A stretch of 37,401 bases of DNA from Desulfovibrionaceae bacterium (GTDB lineage: Bacteria; Desulfobacterota; Desulfovibrionia; Desulfovibrionales; Desulfovibrionaceae), in assembly GCA_015709205.1 (NCBI GenBank), contig JACCQO010000031.1, forward strand, positions 1 to 37,401, written 5' to 3'. A model generated the notes under the pieces. The model was not told the DNA's origin. It ran no database searches and saw nothing but the letters and a program-made list of their open reading frames with translations. Positions within the stretch are counted from its first letter, which is position 1; each line of letters opens with the position of its first letter. Of the stretch, positions 17,451-20,900 are shown in pieces. The position numbers and the translations under genes are program-made.

Positions 17451-18506
17451 TCAGCGGCGGTCCTGGGTGCGGGCGAGGACCAGGGCGTCGACGCGGGCGG
17501 CCCCGGCGCGCAGCAGGGTACGGGCGGTTTCGTGCAGGGTGGAGCAGGTGGTGGCCACGTCGTCCACCACGAGGATGCGCTTGCCGCGCAGGGCGGAGGG
17601 GTCGGTGGCGGCAAAGGCGTTCTTGAGGTTGGTCTGGCGTTCGGCCAGGGGCAGGTTGGTCTGCGGCGTGGTGTGGCGCACGCGGGCGAGCAGGTGCGGC
17701 GCGAGCCGCGACAGGGGCGGAGACGGCAGGGGCGCTCGGGCGCCGTCGGGGTGGCGGCGCGCCGTGGCGGCCAGGACGCGGAGCATGGTGCGCGCGAGCT
17801 CGAGGCTCTGGTTGAAGCCGCGCCAGCGCAGGCGCGCTGCGTGCAGCGGCACGGGCACGACCAGGTCGTGGACCAAGGGAGCCCCGGCGACGTCCGGTTC
17901 GGGCCCGATCGCCCCCGGCAAGGGGGGCACGGCGAAAAAGGCGCGCGCGTAGGCGTCGGCGAGGAGCGCGCCGAGCAGGTGCTGGCGGCCCAGGTCGCGG
18001 TGGAGCTTGAAAAGCAGGATGTGCTCGCGCAGGTCGCCGTCGTAGGGGCCGTGGAAGGCCAGACGCGTCCAGGGCCGGGGCGCGAGGCGGCAGGGCCCGC
18101 AGAGATGTGCGCTTTCGCACGCGGCGACATCGAAAAGGACGCCGGGCCATGCGGCCGCCGGGCCGGGAGCGGGCTCACCGACGGGAGCGCAAGTCGTGGC
18201 CGGGCCGGGCGCGCCGAAAGTCCCTGGAGCCGCGCCCGCATCGGCCTCCGGATCCGGAGCCGGGTCCGGAGCCGGGGCCGTGCCCTCCTCGGCCGCTCCA
18301 CGCGGCGCGTAGGCCGACGAATAGCGCGCGCCGCACATGGGACAGCAGCCCTGCGCGTCGGGGGCCAGGGCGCGGGCGCAGTCCGGGCAGAGCGCGCCGC
18401 CCTCGGCCAGGGCGTGGCCGCAGGCCGGGCAGCGGCGGCGGTCGGCGCCCACGGCGCGGGCCAGGGCGGCGAGCAGGGAGCGCGGAAAGGCGGTGGCGGC
18501 GGACAT
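17451..18506 (-). CDS. ComF-family phosphoribosyltransferase-like protein
   Basis: This 351-residue protein has an N-terminal zinc-ribbon region (CPACGHALAEGGALCPDC, then CPMC and, further on, a CGPC). The C-terminal phosphoribosyltransferase fold carries the PRPP loop ILVVDDVATTCST (about 312-324). ComF proteins are needed for DNA uptake in naturally competent bacteria, but the family is widespread and its role in most species is unknown. Between the second zinc knuckle and the core, residues about 65-115 form an Ala/Pro/Gly-rich insert that lengthens it well beyond the common 220-250 residues. It lies 51 nt after the flavoprotein gene on the same strand. Confidence 0.88.
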   Translation of the reverse strand: MSAATAFPRSLLAALARAVGADRRRCPACGHALAEGGALCPDCARALAPDAQGCCPMCGARYSSAYAPRGAAEEGTAPAPDPAPDPEADAGAAPGTFGAPGPATTCAPVGEPAPGPAAAWPGVLFDVAACESAHLCGPCRLAPRPWTRLAFHGPYDGDLREHILLFKLHRDLGRQHLLGALLADAYARAFFAVPPLPGAIGPEPDVAGAPLVHDLVVPVPLHAARLRWRGFNQSLELARTMLRVLAATARRHPDGARAPLPSPPLSRLAPHLLARVRHTTPQTNLPLAERQTNLKNAFAATDPSALRGKRILVVDDVATTCSTLHETARTLLRAGAARVDALVLARTQDRR

Positions 18507-18557: not shown

Positions 18558-19199
18558 TCAGGGCCGGGCGGCGGCCTCGCGAGCTGCGAGACTGCCGCTG
18601 GCTTCGAGCTGCTCGCACGCGGCCTCCAGGGCGCCCAGGTCGCCGGGCTCGTCCACGCCGCGGTAGAGATGGGTTCCGGCCAGTTCCAGATTGAAGGGTT
18701 CGAGGAAGTACTTGAGGGTCAACACCGCTCCGTCGAAAAGGCGCTCGCCCGCCGGACGCCCGGCCACCAGGGCAACCCAGGCCTTGCGGCGCGGCAGGGC
18801 GGCCAGGACGGCGTCGCCCGCGCGGCGGCGCTGGTAGAAGCTCTGGCCGCGATCGATGAAGGCCTTGAGGTGCGCGGGCAGGTGGTAGAAGAAGATCGGC
18901 GCGGCGAAGCAGACGAACGGGGCGCGGCACAGGGCGTCGAACAGGGGCGCGCTCTGGTCGCGGAGCGCGAGGGGGCAGCGGCCGTCCGGATCGTCGGCGC
19001 AGCAGGAGCAGGCCAGGCAGGGCAGCACCTGGTGGTCGCGCAGGTGGATGACGTGCGCCGCGGCCCCGGCCCGGACCGCGCCGCGGGCGAAGTGTTCGGC
19101 GGCGGCGTCCGAATTGCCGCCCGCGCGCGGGCTGCAGGCAAAGACCGCGCCGGTGCGGGCCCAGTCCACCTGGGCGGCGTCGATGCGCGTGTCGGGCAT
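18558..19199 (-). CDS. Flavodoxin-fold NAD(P)H:FMN reductase, iron-sulfur-flavoprotein-like
   Basis: This 213-residue protein has the FMN phosphate-binding loop CSPRAGGNSD (about 20-29) of the NADPH-dependent FMN reductase family. After the second strand comes a cysteine cluster, PCLACSCCADDPDGRC, whose C-x2-C-x2-C spacing plus a later Cys resembles the compact 4Fe-4S motif of archaeal and anaerobe iron-sulfur flavoproteins. It would move electrons from a reduced carrier to FMN and on to a small acceptor. ATG 19199 has AAAGGA 5 nt upstream, so the longer open frame to 19406 is not used. It follows the selenoprotein operon after a 286-nt gap and may have its own promoter. Confidence 0.85.
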   Translation of the reverse strand: MPDTRIDAAQVDWARTGAVFACSPRAGGNSDAAAEHFARGAVRAGAAAHVIHLRDHQVLPCLACSCCADDPDGRCPLALRDQSAPLFDALCRAPFVCFAAPIFFYHLPAHLKAFIDRGQSFYQRRRAGDAVLAALPRRKAWVALVAGRPAGERLFDGAVLTLKYFLEPFNLELAGTHLYRGVDEPGDLGALEAACEQLEASGSLAAREAAARP

Positions 19200-19485: not shown

Positions 19486-19722
19486 CTACTTGCGGGTGAA
19501 GCGGGCCAGCAGGCCGCCGCCCGCGTCGTCGGCCGGACCGGTGCTCATGCGCCAGTCCGTCTCCACGTAGAGCATGTGTTCGAGCTGGTCCAGGGAGCTT
19601 TCCTTGACCAGGGCCTCGACCACGTCACGCCGCCCGAATCGGAGGTACCAACTTACCTCCATGCCCACGCCTCAACACTTGTCGCGCAGGTCCACCCGCA
19701 AGGGTTCCGGTGTCCGGCTCAT
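19486..19722 (-). CDS. TusA/SirA-like selenoprotein (UGA = selenocysteine at codon 17)
   Basis: The reading frame starts at ATG 19722, which overlaps the stop of the metallo-beta-lactamase gene as ATGA. It runs MSRTPEPLRVDLRDKC, meets TGA at 19674-19672, and continues in the same frame to TAG for 78 residues. TusA-type sulfur carriers begin with a short strand, then DLRG-x-x-C-P-x-P-(V/L/M); here DLRDKC-U-GVGME puts selenocysteine exactly at the catalytic cysteine, preceded by an ordinary Cys. The length (78), the mid-protein helix-strand content and the C-terminal LLARFTRK also fit the family. A perfect stem-loop follows the TGA (see 19641-19660). Ordinary gene calling gives only a 60-residue fragment from GTG 19668 that lacks the active site. 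Its function is probably a redox-active chalcogen carrier. A readthrough-independent fragment is the alternative. Confidence 0.85.
19641..19660 (-). promoter_or_regulatory. Candidate bacterial SECIS stem-loop
   Basis: On the minus strand GGAGGTA pairs perfectly with TACCTCC around the loop AGTTGG. The stem starts 11 nt and the loop 18 nt after the in-frame TGA, inside the distance range known for bacterial SECIS elements. A G lies within the first two loop bases, as SelB recognition usually requires. The codons here (GTA, AGT, CGA) are rare elsewhere in this GC-rich window, which suggests selection on RNA structure. Confidence 0.8.
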
Positions 19723-20357
19723 AGATCGTTCCTGCTCATGAACTGGGTGAAGAAGGGGTTGTGCAGCCGCTCCTCGTGCACCGTGGTGGCCGGGCCGTGG
19801 CCGGAATGGAGCGCGGTTTCGCCCGGCAGGGTGAAGATGCGCTCGCGCACCGAGGCCAGCAGGTCCTCCAGGCTGCCGCCGGGAAAGTCCGTGCGGCCGA
19901 TGGACTGGCGGAAGATGAGGTCGCCCACGAAGGCCACGGCCGCGTCCGGAAAGTGGAAGGTCAGGCTCCCGGGCGTGTGCCCGGGCGTGGGCAGCACGTC
20001 GCAGGGTTGGCCCAGGAACTCGGTGCGGCCCGGGGCCAGGGGTTGCCAGTCGAAGGGCTCCACGCGCGGCGTGCCCATGAACCCGCCCATGCCCAGTTCG
20101 TTCTCCAGGAGGAAGGCGTCGTCCTGCGGGCCCAGGATGGGCGCGGACGTGGCCGCGGCCAGGGCGCGGCAGCCGTAGACGTGGTCGAAGTGGAAGTGGG
20201 TCACGAGGATGTGCGTCAGGCCCAGGCCGTTGGCCTTGAGGTGCCTGAGGACCGGCGCGGGGTCGCCCCCGGGGTCCACGACCACGGCGCCTTCATCCTG
20301 GCTGGCCACGAAACAGTTGGTCTGCAGCGGACCGATGGAAAAGACGGCGACCTTCAT
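19719..20357 (-). CDS. Metallo-beta-lactamase-fold hydrolase (glyoxalase II-like)
   Basis: This 212-residue enzyme has the metal motif THFHFDH (His54, His56, Asp58, His59), then His128 (TPGHTPGS), Asp147 (FVGDLIF) and His188 (HSGHGP), the full two-metal set of the GloB-like family. Related enzymes hydrolyse thioesters or oxidise persulfides. ATG 20357 is preferred; a TTG two codons upstream is closer to the AAGGAG site and remains possible. It starts 21 nt after the nitroreductase stop, and its own stop overlaps the selenoprotein start as ATGA, so translation of the two is coupled. That pairing suggests a shared thiol, persulfide or selenol substrate. Confidence 0.9.
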   Translation of the reverse strand: MKVAVFSIGPLQTNCFVASQDEGAVVVDPGGDPAPVLRHLKANGLGLTHILVTHFHFDHVYGCRALAAATSAPILGPQDDAFLLENELGMGGFMGTPRVEPFDWQPLAPGRTEFLGQPCDVLPTPGHTPGSLTFHFPDAAVAFVGDLIFRQSIGRTDFPGGSLEDLLASVRERIFTLPGETALHSGHGPATTVHEERLHNPFFTQFMSRNDL

Positions 20358-20378: not shown

Positions 20379-20900
20379 CTAGAATTGTTCGAGCAGGAAT
20401 TCGGAGAAGTCGCGCCGCGAGGACGCGCCCTTGGCCGCGGGGCGGCCCATGGCCACCACGGCCTGCAACTCGTAGCGCTCCGCGTCCAGGCCGAGGTCGG
20501 CGAGGACCTCCTTCTCGCGGGCCAGGATCTCGCCGATCCAGACCGCGCCGTAGCCCAGGGAGTGGGCGGCGAGCAGGATGTTCTGCAGGCACGCGCCCGC
20601 GGACTGGTGGTCCTTGCGCGTGTCGTAGGTCAGGGTGTTGTCCAGGAACACGCAGATGAGCGCGGCGGCGTTCTCGAGCATGGCCGTGTACTTGGTGCGC
20701 GAGGCCACGGTCTTCTTGCGCTCGTCCCCGGCGAAAAGCACCTGGAACTTCAGGGGCTGGTTGTTCTTGCCCGTGGGGGCCCAGCGCCCGGCGTCGAGGA
20801 TGCGGAGCATGTCGTCGCGGGAAACGGATTCGTCGGTGAACTTGCGGATCGAGCGCCGCTCGTGGATGGCGGCGAGCACGGGGGTGGGCTGGGTGGTCAT
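20379..20900 (-). CDS. Nitroreductase-family FMN oxidoreductase
   Basis: This 173-residue protein begins with the family motif ERRSIRKFTDESVSRDDM and has GRWAPTGKNNQPLKFQV and, later, GACLQNILLAAHSLGYGAVWIG, the conserved FMN-binding and dimer segments. It would reduce nitro, quinone or enone compounds with NAD(P)H and act as a homodimer. The ATG has GGAG 5 nt upstream. It is first in a tightly spaced operon with the metallo-beta-lactamase gene and the TusA-like selenoprotein, and a candidate promoter lies at 20988-21016. The natural substrate is unknown. Confidence 0.9.
   Translation of the reverse strand: MTTQPTPVLAAIHERRSIRKFTDESVSRDDMLRILDAGRWAPTGKNNQPLKFQVLFAGDERKKTVASRTKYTAMLENAAALICVFLDNTLTYDTRKDHQSAGACLQNILLAAHSLGYGAVWIGEILAREKEVLADLGLDAERYELQAVVAMGRPAAKGASSRRDFSEFLLEQF

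Follow-up and report, generated by a model that had tools for sequence, protein, structure and literature searches.

The Selenoprotein Locus

The DNA analyzed here, referred to throughout as the window, is a 37,401-nucleotide stretch of contig JACCQO010000031.1 (assembly GCA_015709205.1) from a Desulfovibrionaceae bacterium. Judged from sequence, its minus strand carries at 19486..19722 a gene that almost certainly encodes a genuine selenoprotein, with selenocysteine (Sec) inserted at position 17. The gene comprises 78 codons and a TAG stop (19488-19486), and its predicted product, MSRTPEPLRVDLRDKC-U-GVGMEVSWYLRF...LARFTRK, is expected to adopt a β-α-β-α-β-β arrangement. The in-frame UGA assigned to Sec17 (19672..19674, minus strand) is followed by the residues GVGME; its counterpart is the invariant Cys in a family of paralogues and, by a weak alignment, the TusA catalytic Cys. 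The codon immediately before it, TGT (19675..19677, minus strand), specifies Cys16, the vicinal partner of Sec, and Cys occupies this position in 117 of the 118 loci fetched, two non-UGA loci included. The obvious open reading frame (ORF) of 60 residues (19486-19668) is only the post-UGA portion of the 78-codon frame. An earlier reading of the DNA (hereafter the sequence-only reading) had traced the frame back through the TGA to an ATG overlapping the stop of the preceding gene, and its coordinates and translation proved exact: the start codon (19722-19720, minus strand) shares bases with the stop of an upstream metallo-β-lactamase (MBL)-fold gene, in the overlap ATGA.

Conservation and Distribution of the UGA Codon

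The gene was sought in a sample of 199 genomes of the order Desulfovibrionales. A stop-tolerant search with the window protein returned 118 matches in 117 of these genomes, and a profile search gave a family match in 122, with the UGA form present in 118. Two extra UGA copies found by the profile (L248 and L249) were checked, and its 32 matches lacking a UGA are made up of 31 Cys paralogues and one copy reading CPC. Over the 118 fetched loci the codon at the Sec column is TGA in 116, CCA in one and TGC in one, and never TAA or TAG; the CCA corresponds to the inserted Pro of the CPC version and the TGC to a paralogue. Such constancy far exceeds what chance would give. The stretch ahead of the UGA behaves as coding sequence, since its seven codons show a periodicity in which the third position is the most variable (entropy 0.87, 0.49, and 1.31 at positions 1-3). 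Among distinct sequences, D(-6) is present in 112/112, R(-4) in 109/112 and C(-1) in 111/112, and Cys directly precedes Sec in 115 of the 116 UGA-form sequences. The remaining Sec copy, L052 of genome G129, has Gly in place of this Cys, indicating that the neighboring Cys can be lost with Sec retained.

Two UGA copies look decayed, L046 (G197) having an additional in-frame TAA and L047 (G164) being divergent, and these were omitted from the codon-variability count and the tree. Their genomes also contain a Cys paralogue (L222 and L223). The same two copies are absent from the protein alignment, whose 66 rows were picked by eye for diversity from the window and 115 references and include two non-UGA forms (L043 and L044).

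Within the order, the gene is found in all eight sampled genomes of the genus that includes Desulfovibrio sp. A2 (G083). When the profile was applied to a 148-genome sample of the phylum, two matches were obtained, both in genomes of the window's own taxonomic family, and nothing matched beyond it. A DNA pattern covering the UGA and the hairpin described below, which favors close relatives, matched 52 named contigs at the DNA level; five are labeled only Proteo- or Deltaproteobacteria, and the other 47 bear names that we take to be those of Desulfovibrionales. Solidesulfovibrio alcoholivorans DSM 5433 is among the species that the pattern matched. A search of named genome contigs with the single window protein gave no match.

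A Conserved Hairpin Follows the UGA

A hairpin of the bacterial selenocysteine insertion sequence (SECIS) type lies at 19640..19661 on the minus strand, with the stem TGGAGGTA, the loop AGTTGG and the stem TACCTCCG; the six-base loop begins 19 nt past the UGA. The folding energy of the hairpin alone is unremarkable (z -0.84 for 73 nt). A DNA alignment was assembled from 66 rows, picked by eye for diversity from the window and 113 references, and in the 66-sequence alignment 91.5% of stem cells pair. The covariation score is 0.196 vs. 0.113 in shuffles, a value reached by none of the 500, and pairings slid out of register score lower; four of five hairpin measures are exceptional, the other being the count of further pair types (107/500 shuffles). 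Hairpin codons also draw on synonyms that are otherwise rare, a choice that shows selection on the RNA: Val is encoded by GTA in 39 of 57 hairpin codons vs. 38 of 549 downstream, and Ile by ATA in 27 of 30 vs. 45 of 194 (hairpin codons being counted in 102 distinct sequences and downstream codons in all 116 loci). The hairpin wobble base also tends to pair with the opening base of the Tyr/His codon that comes three codons later: in those 102 sequences the combinations are A-T in 65, G-C in eight and G-T in one, and the unpaired ones are C-C (20), C-T (six) and A-C (two).

A hairpin of at least five pairs appears in the minimum free energy fold of 97/116 Sec loci, 6/30 Cys paralogue loci and 17/116 control stretches. 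A covariance model built from the sequences of 65 other genomes, the window being excluded, gave 65.4 bits (E 1.2e-18) for the site in the window, and its only other match at E ≤ 1 has 6.9 bits (E 0.85). Over 33 further loci the model recovered the Sec locus L248 (E 7.7e-6) and missed the Sec locus L249; it matched nothing at the active site in L043 or in the 30 paralogue loci, where its two weak hits (E 0.12 and 0.4) lie away from the active-site codon. Rfam gave nothing in the window at gathering scores.

Selenocysteine Machinery and a Probable Natural Sec-to-Cys Change

The genome of the window has selB (346 bits), selA (E 1.1e-170), a tRNA-Sec gene (selC, 80.7 bits) on the same contig as selB, and selD (L216, G000:C18:26262-27182; 333 bits). 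A TGA lies in frame within the selD match, so SelD in this genome is probably itself Sec-containing. The earlier proposal of a selenoprotein hidden by its UGA is thus borne out by a full set of selA, selB, selC and selD, by U in the UGA forms and Cys in 31 paralogues at the column, and by the nearly fixed residues ahead of the UGA.

Sec machinery is common in the order, with selA matched in 180/199 genomes (179 over cut-off) and tRNA-Sec over cut-off in 188/199, and selA, selB or both were matched in all 118 genomes with the UGA form. Among these, a selA match is lacking only in G069 (77% complete) and G081 (63% complete) and is weak in G066 (82% complete); all three have selB over cut-off, and tRNA-Sec scores 82 bits in G069 and 86 bits in G081, with none over cut-off in G066. 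In G079 (77% complete) tRNA-Sec is matched only weakly, but selA at E 3.0e-184.

The CPC copy (L043, G070:C7:10374-10592) reads DLRQACPCTL, with CPC in place of C-U. It has no UGA and no match to the hairpin model, and clusters (0.978) with a pair of UGA copies from its genus. In its genome (G070, 85% complete) selA is unmatched, nothing reaches the selB cut-off, and the best tRNA-Sec score is 46.8 bits vs. a cut-off of 47. From these sequences we read L043 as a natural Sec-to-Cys change accompanied by loss of the Sec machinery. A 26-residue selB-like stretch in the same genome (G070:C13:21655-21732, 26.7 bits) may be a remnant.

The Cys Paralogue Family

A second unnamed family, of 31 loci (L218-L247 and L044), encodes proteins of 85 residues with the pattern DLRxVTCGLVPxI...W...LNxVxY. 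All 31 were aligned; in the tree they make up a single clade (0.999), and every one has Cys at the Sec column (31/31); L044 was omitted from the neighbor, hairpin and model counts, which therefore refer to 30 loci. Compared with the profile of the Sec family, the paralogues are homologous over 77 columns (98.7%, E 3.6e-16), and their predicted fold is similar, at lower confidence (pLDDT, the predicted local distance difference test, 77.9). They differ in having no UGA, mostly no hairpin, a Pro at +4, a C-terminal tail, and an mnmE neighbor instead of the MBL gene, and neither Pfam nor NCBIfam offers a credible match. Several residues can precede the Cys (T 17, C 4, S 4, V 3, A 2, Y 1), so a Cys-Sec pair is peculiar to the Sec form. 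The active site lies about 3 kb into most paralogue loci. These paralogues provide a natural control for the Sec family.

An mnmE ORF, so named from one scanned representative, lies upstream in 22 of the 30 paralogue loci, and this neighbor raised the idea of a general role in tRNA selenation (SelU/MnmH). TIGR03167 exceeds its cut-off in 12/199 genomes and in none of the 122 with a family match, sub-cut-off matches (the window's genome included) being taken as unrelated, and tRNA selenation was rejected as a general explanation since no over-cut-off SelU occurs in family-bearing genomes. SelU/MnmH over cut-off and the window selenoprotein are never found in the same genome of the 199.

Gene Neighborhood

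The four neighbors described in the window itself all lie on its minus strand. The MBL-fold hydrolase upstream (19719..20357), whose stop overlaps the selenoprotein start, is glyoxalase II-like; its best solved relatives are 7ev5, 2zwr, 7l0b and 2xf4, with ETHE1 at 5e-20, and it reached no NCBIfam cut-off. An MBL match precedes the family gene, in the same orientation, at 95 of 118 loci. Over 87 measured loci, the MBL stop and the closest in-frame ATG are separated by a median of 13 nt, by ≤40 nt in 63 loci and by more than 1 kb in a few. Further upstream is a nitroreductase-family gene (20379..20900, start judged by eye), which is also found upstream in 66 of 118 loci, 30 of the 118 having flanks of just 1.5 kb. 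Downstream are an NADPH-dependent FMN reductase-like gene (18558..19199) and a ComF-type phosphoribosyltransferase (17451..18506); a ComF-type gene likewise follows, in the same orientation, at 95 of 118 loci. In the 22 Sec loci without an MBL match, genes for GDT1 (12), MoeA (nine) or Aat (five) are found upstream, each neighbor cluster having been named from one scanned representative. The partners thus vary between Sec loci, and no neighbor identifies a pathway.

Predicted Structural Resemblance to TusA and SirA

TusA carries sulfur as a persulfide on its catalytic Cys. The window protein very probably shares its fold and active-site position, according to structure prediction and a register backed by profile alignment. 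The AlphaFold model (pLDDT 91.7) has the TusA strand-helix order, β-α-β-α-β-β, with the reactive residue in the loop before helix 1. In the profile alignment the Sec column falls in register, weakly, with the TusA catalytic Cys; the TusA profile covered 19 of 30 loci at first and 29 of 30 for this register alignment. SirA/YeeD head the VIA structural list. Like the TusA/SirA proteins (PF01206; Escherichia coli TusA and the SirA-like 3hz7), members of the window family are about 80 residues long, and in the predicted fold a D-x-R strand leads to the reactive residue, with helix 1 next. The window family is distinguished by Sec in place of Cys, a Cys before the Sec, the lack of CPxP and the failure of Pfam to recognize it. 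CPxP, described as a motif of the TusA family in the accessible part of PMC11073785, is also present in YeeD (TsuB), the TusA-family partner of the thiosulfate transporter YeeE, unlike in the window family. No yeeE was recognized among the conserved neighbors identified, no model search aimed at yeeE having been made.

Instead of the first Pro of CPxP, the residue at +1 to Sec is G in 97, H in 14, R in three and A and K in one each (n = 116), and no Pro occurs at +3 among the 113 of 116 sequences listed. The window protein drew no Pfam family at E ≤ 1, and PF01206 is not among the Pfam matches of 66 members (E ≤ 0.1). Scanning these 66 members against NCBIfam at E ≤ 0.1 brought up three families, each through a single member (best 0.026), and none of the three is a selenoprotein family. 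Foldseek with the predicted model gave nothing significant, and differs from VIA on the top-ranked structure. Profile searches of the PDB with the Sec family and with the paralogues likewise produced weak, unrelated matches only, and the same search with the TusA alignment recovered TusA chains. The description "TusA/SirA-like" given by the sequence-only reading consequently stands for predicted fold and active-site position and falls for family membership, where CPxP is absent and the comparison with PF01206 that it had proposed gave no match.

The Cys-Sec pair and bacterial UGA decoding are common to the window family and the CU-motif selenoproteins KCU-star/DUF466 (NF033934), SaoC, SaoL, HgcA and MbdU, whose names and motifs are given in the accessible part of Table 1 of PMC13188914. 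The window family is set apart from these by having no credible NCBIfam match.

Proposed Function and Alternatives

With Sec at the active site of such a domain, what might the protein do? Taken as a whole, a TusA-fold protein with a Sec nucleophile, engaged in sulfur/selenium or thiol chemistry, is the likely answer. SelB would recognize the hairpin after the UGA and Sec would go in at position 17 of a 78-residue TusA-like domain, in the loop before helix 1 that in TusA holds the sulfur-accepting Cys. The selenolate could serve as the nucleophile that takes a sulfane sulfur (from persulfide, polysulfide or thiosulfate) or a selenium atom, and would hand it on or release it as sulfide, while Cys16 could resolve the adduct via a Cys-Sec bond; the paralogues, with a single conserved Cys, would work as plain one-Cys carriers. 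We give slightly less than an even chance to the handling of sulfane sulfur or selenium by the Sec17 protein, a role akin to the sulfur or selenium carrier that the sequence-only reading had put forward, and hold the resolving role of Cys16 a shade more tentatively.

Chief among the rivals is a small redox protein of the selenylsulfide type, whose Cys-Sec pair would shuttle electrons or repair thiols and carry no sulfur or selenium atom. This rather unlikely alternative would suit the almost constant Cys before Sec, the two cysteines retained by the CPC convertant and the reductase-type neighbors (nitroreductase, and FMN reductase in the window). However, the predicted fold is not thioredoxin-like, and the pair is not essential to the chemistry of the fold, since the paralogues keep one conserved Cys with a variable preceding residue and L052 combines Sec with Gly. 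It is improbable that the protein is instead a selenium-specific carrier, supplying SelD, or some other acceptor, with selenide where the cytoplasm is rich in sulfide. The TusA-like predicted fold and the selA or selB matches of all UGA-form genomes agree with such a carrier, as do the genomic links between SirA-like proteins and selD in other bacteria that are reported in the accessible part of PMC2432076. Yet the identified conserved neighbors are not selD, and the Sec codon itself demands co-occurrence with the Sec machinery. Moreover, genus g3 is missing from the 122 genomes that the family profile matched, though many g3 genomes have selA, and the family is therefore not a general need of the Sec pathway.

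Two further explanations were considered. The predicted fold is common to Alba, Smr and the IF3 C-terminal domain, which would allow a domain that binds RNA or DNA; we regard this as very improbable because the placing of a conserved Sec/Cys where helix 1 begins follows TusA, and we know of no role for such a residue in Alba or Smr. An ordinary stop, which would either split the frame into a small leader peptide and an independent ORF after it or mark a decayed gene, would follow from the standard code, which closes the frame at the UGA, and would have some precedent in the two decayed-looking copies elsewhere. It is extremely improbable given that the UGA is kept in 116 loci without a single TAA or TAG and is matched by Cys in the paralogues, that a covarying hairpin follows and coding periodicity precedes it, and that the Sec machinery co-occurs. 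Readthrough of the UGA as Trp, or a reassigned code, was rejected: UGA is the terminator of 70 of these 116 ORFs (TAA ends 26 and TAG 20), and homologues have Cys at the column.

Novelty and Significance

The family is undescribed in the open-access PMC literature searched, a body that does not cover preprints. A 2026 compilation (PMC13188914) reaches 119 selenoprotein families or subfamilies by its own count in Table 1; the accessible part of that table has no TusA/SirA entry, and "TusA" and "SirA" do not occur in the text. The window family is not among the D. vulgaris selenoproteins named in the accessible parts of PMC1794560 and PMC1914089, and PMC9312934 mentions neither SirA nor TusA. 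According to the accessible part of the deep-Sep paper, families without Cys homologues may be filtered out, and no new selenoproteins were found in Desulfomicrobium orale or Salidesulfovibrio onnuriiensis. The copy in the genome that we take as D. orale (G052) is intact, and that in the genome taken as S. onnuriiensis (G197) is the decayed-looking L046. Methods that require Cys homologues can thus miss the window family. Standard annotation, too, is likely to miss this gene, which about three-fifths of the sampled genomes of the order contain (118/199), because the UGA splits it and no Pfam or NCBIfam model matches.

It is possible, with considerable doubt, that this is the first selenoprotein on a TusA-type fold, devoted to Sec-based transfer of sulfane sulfur or selenium, kept as Sec in 118 of the 199 genomes and seen to convert to Cys only once within the Sec group. 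If TusA-like chemistry is true of it, selenium enters sulfur trafficking, and an advantage of Sec under abundant sulfide becomes testable. If the Sec-based transfer reading is true, it would point to a preference of life at high sulfide for a selenolate over a thiolate in such chemistry.
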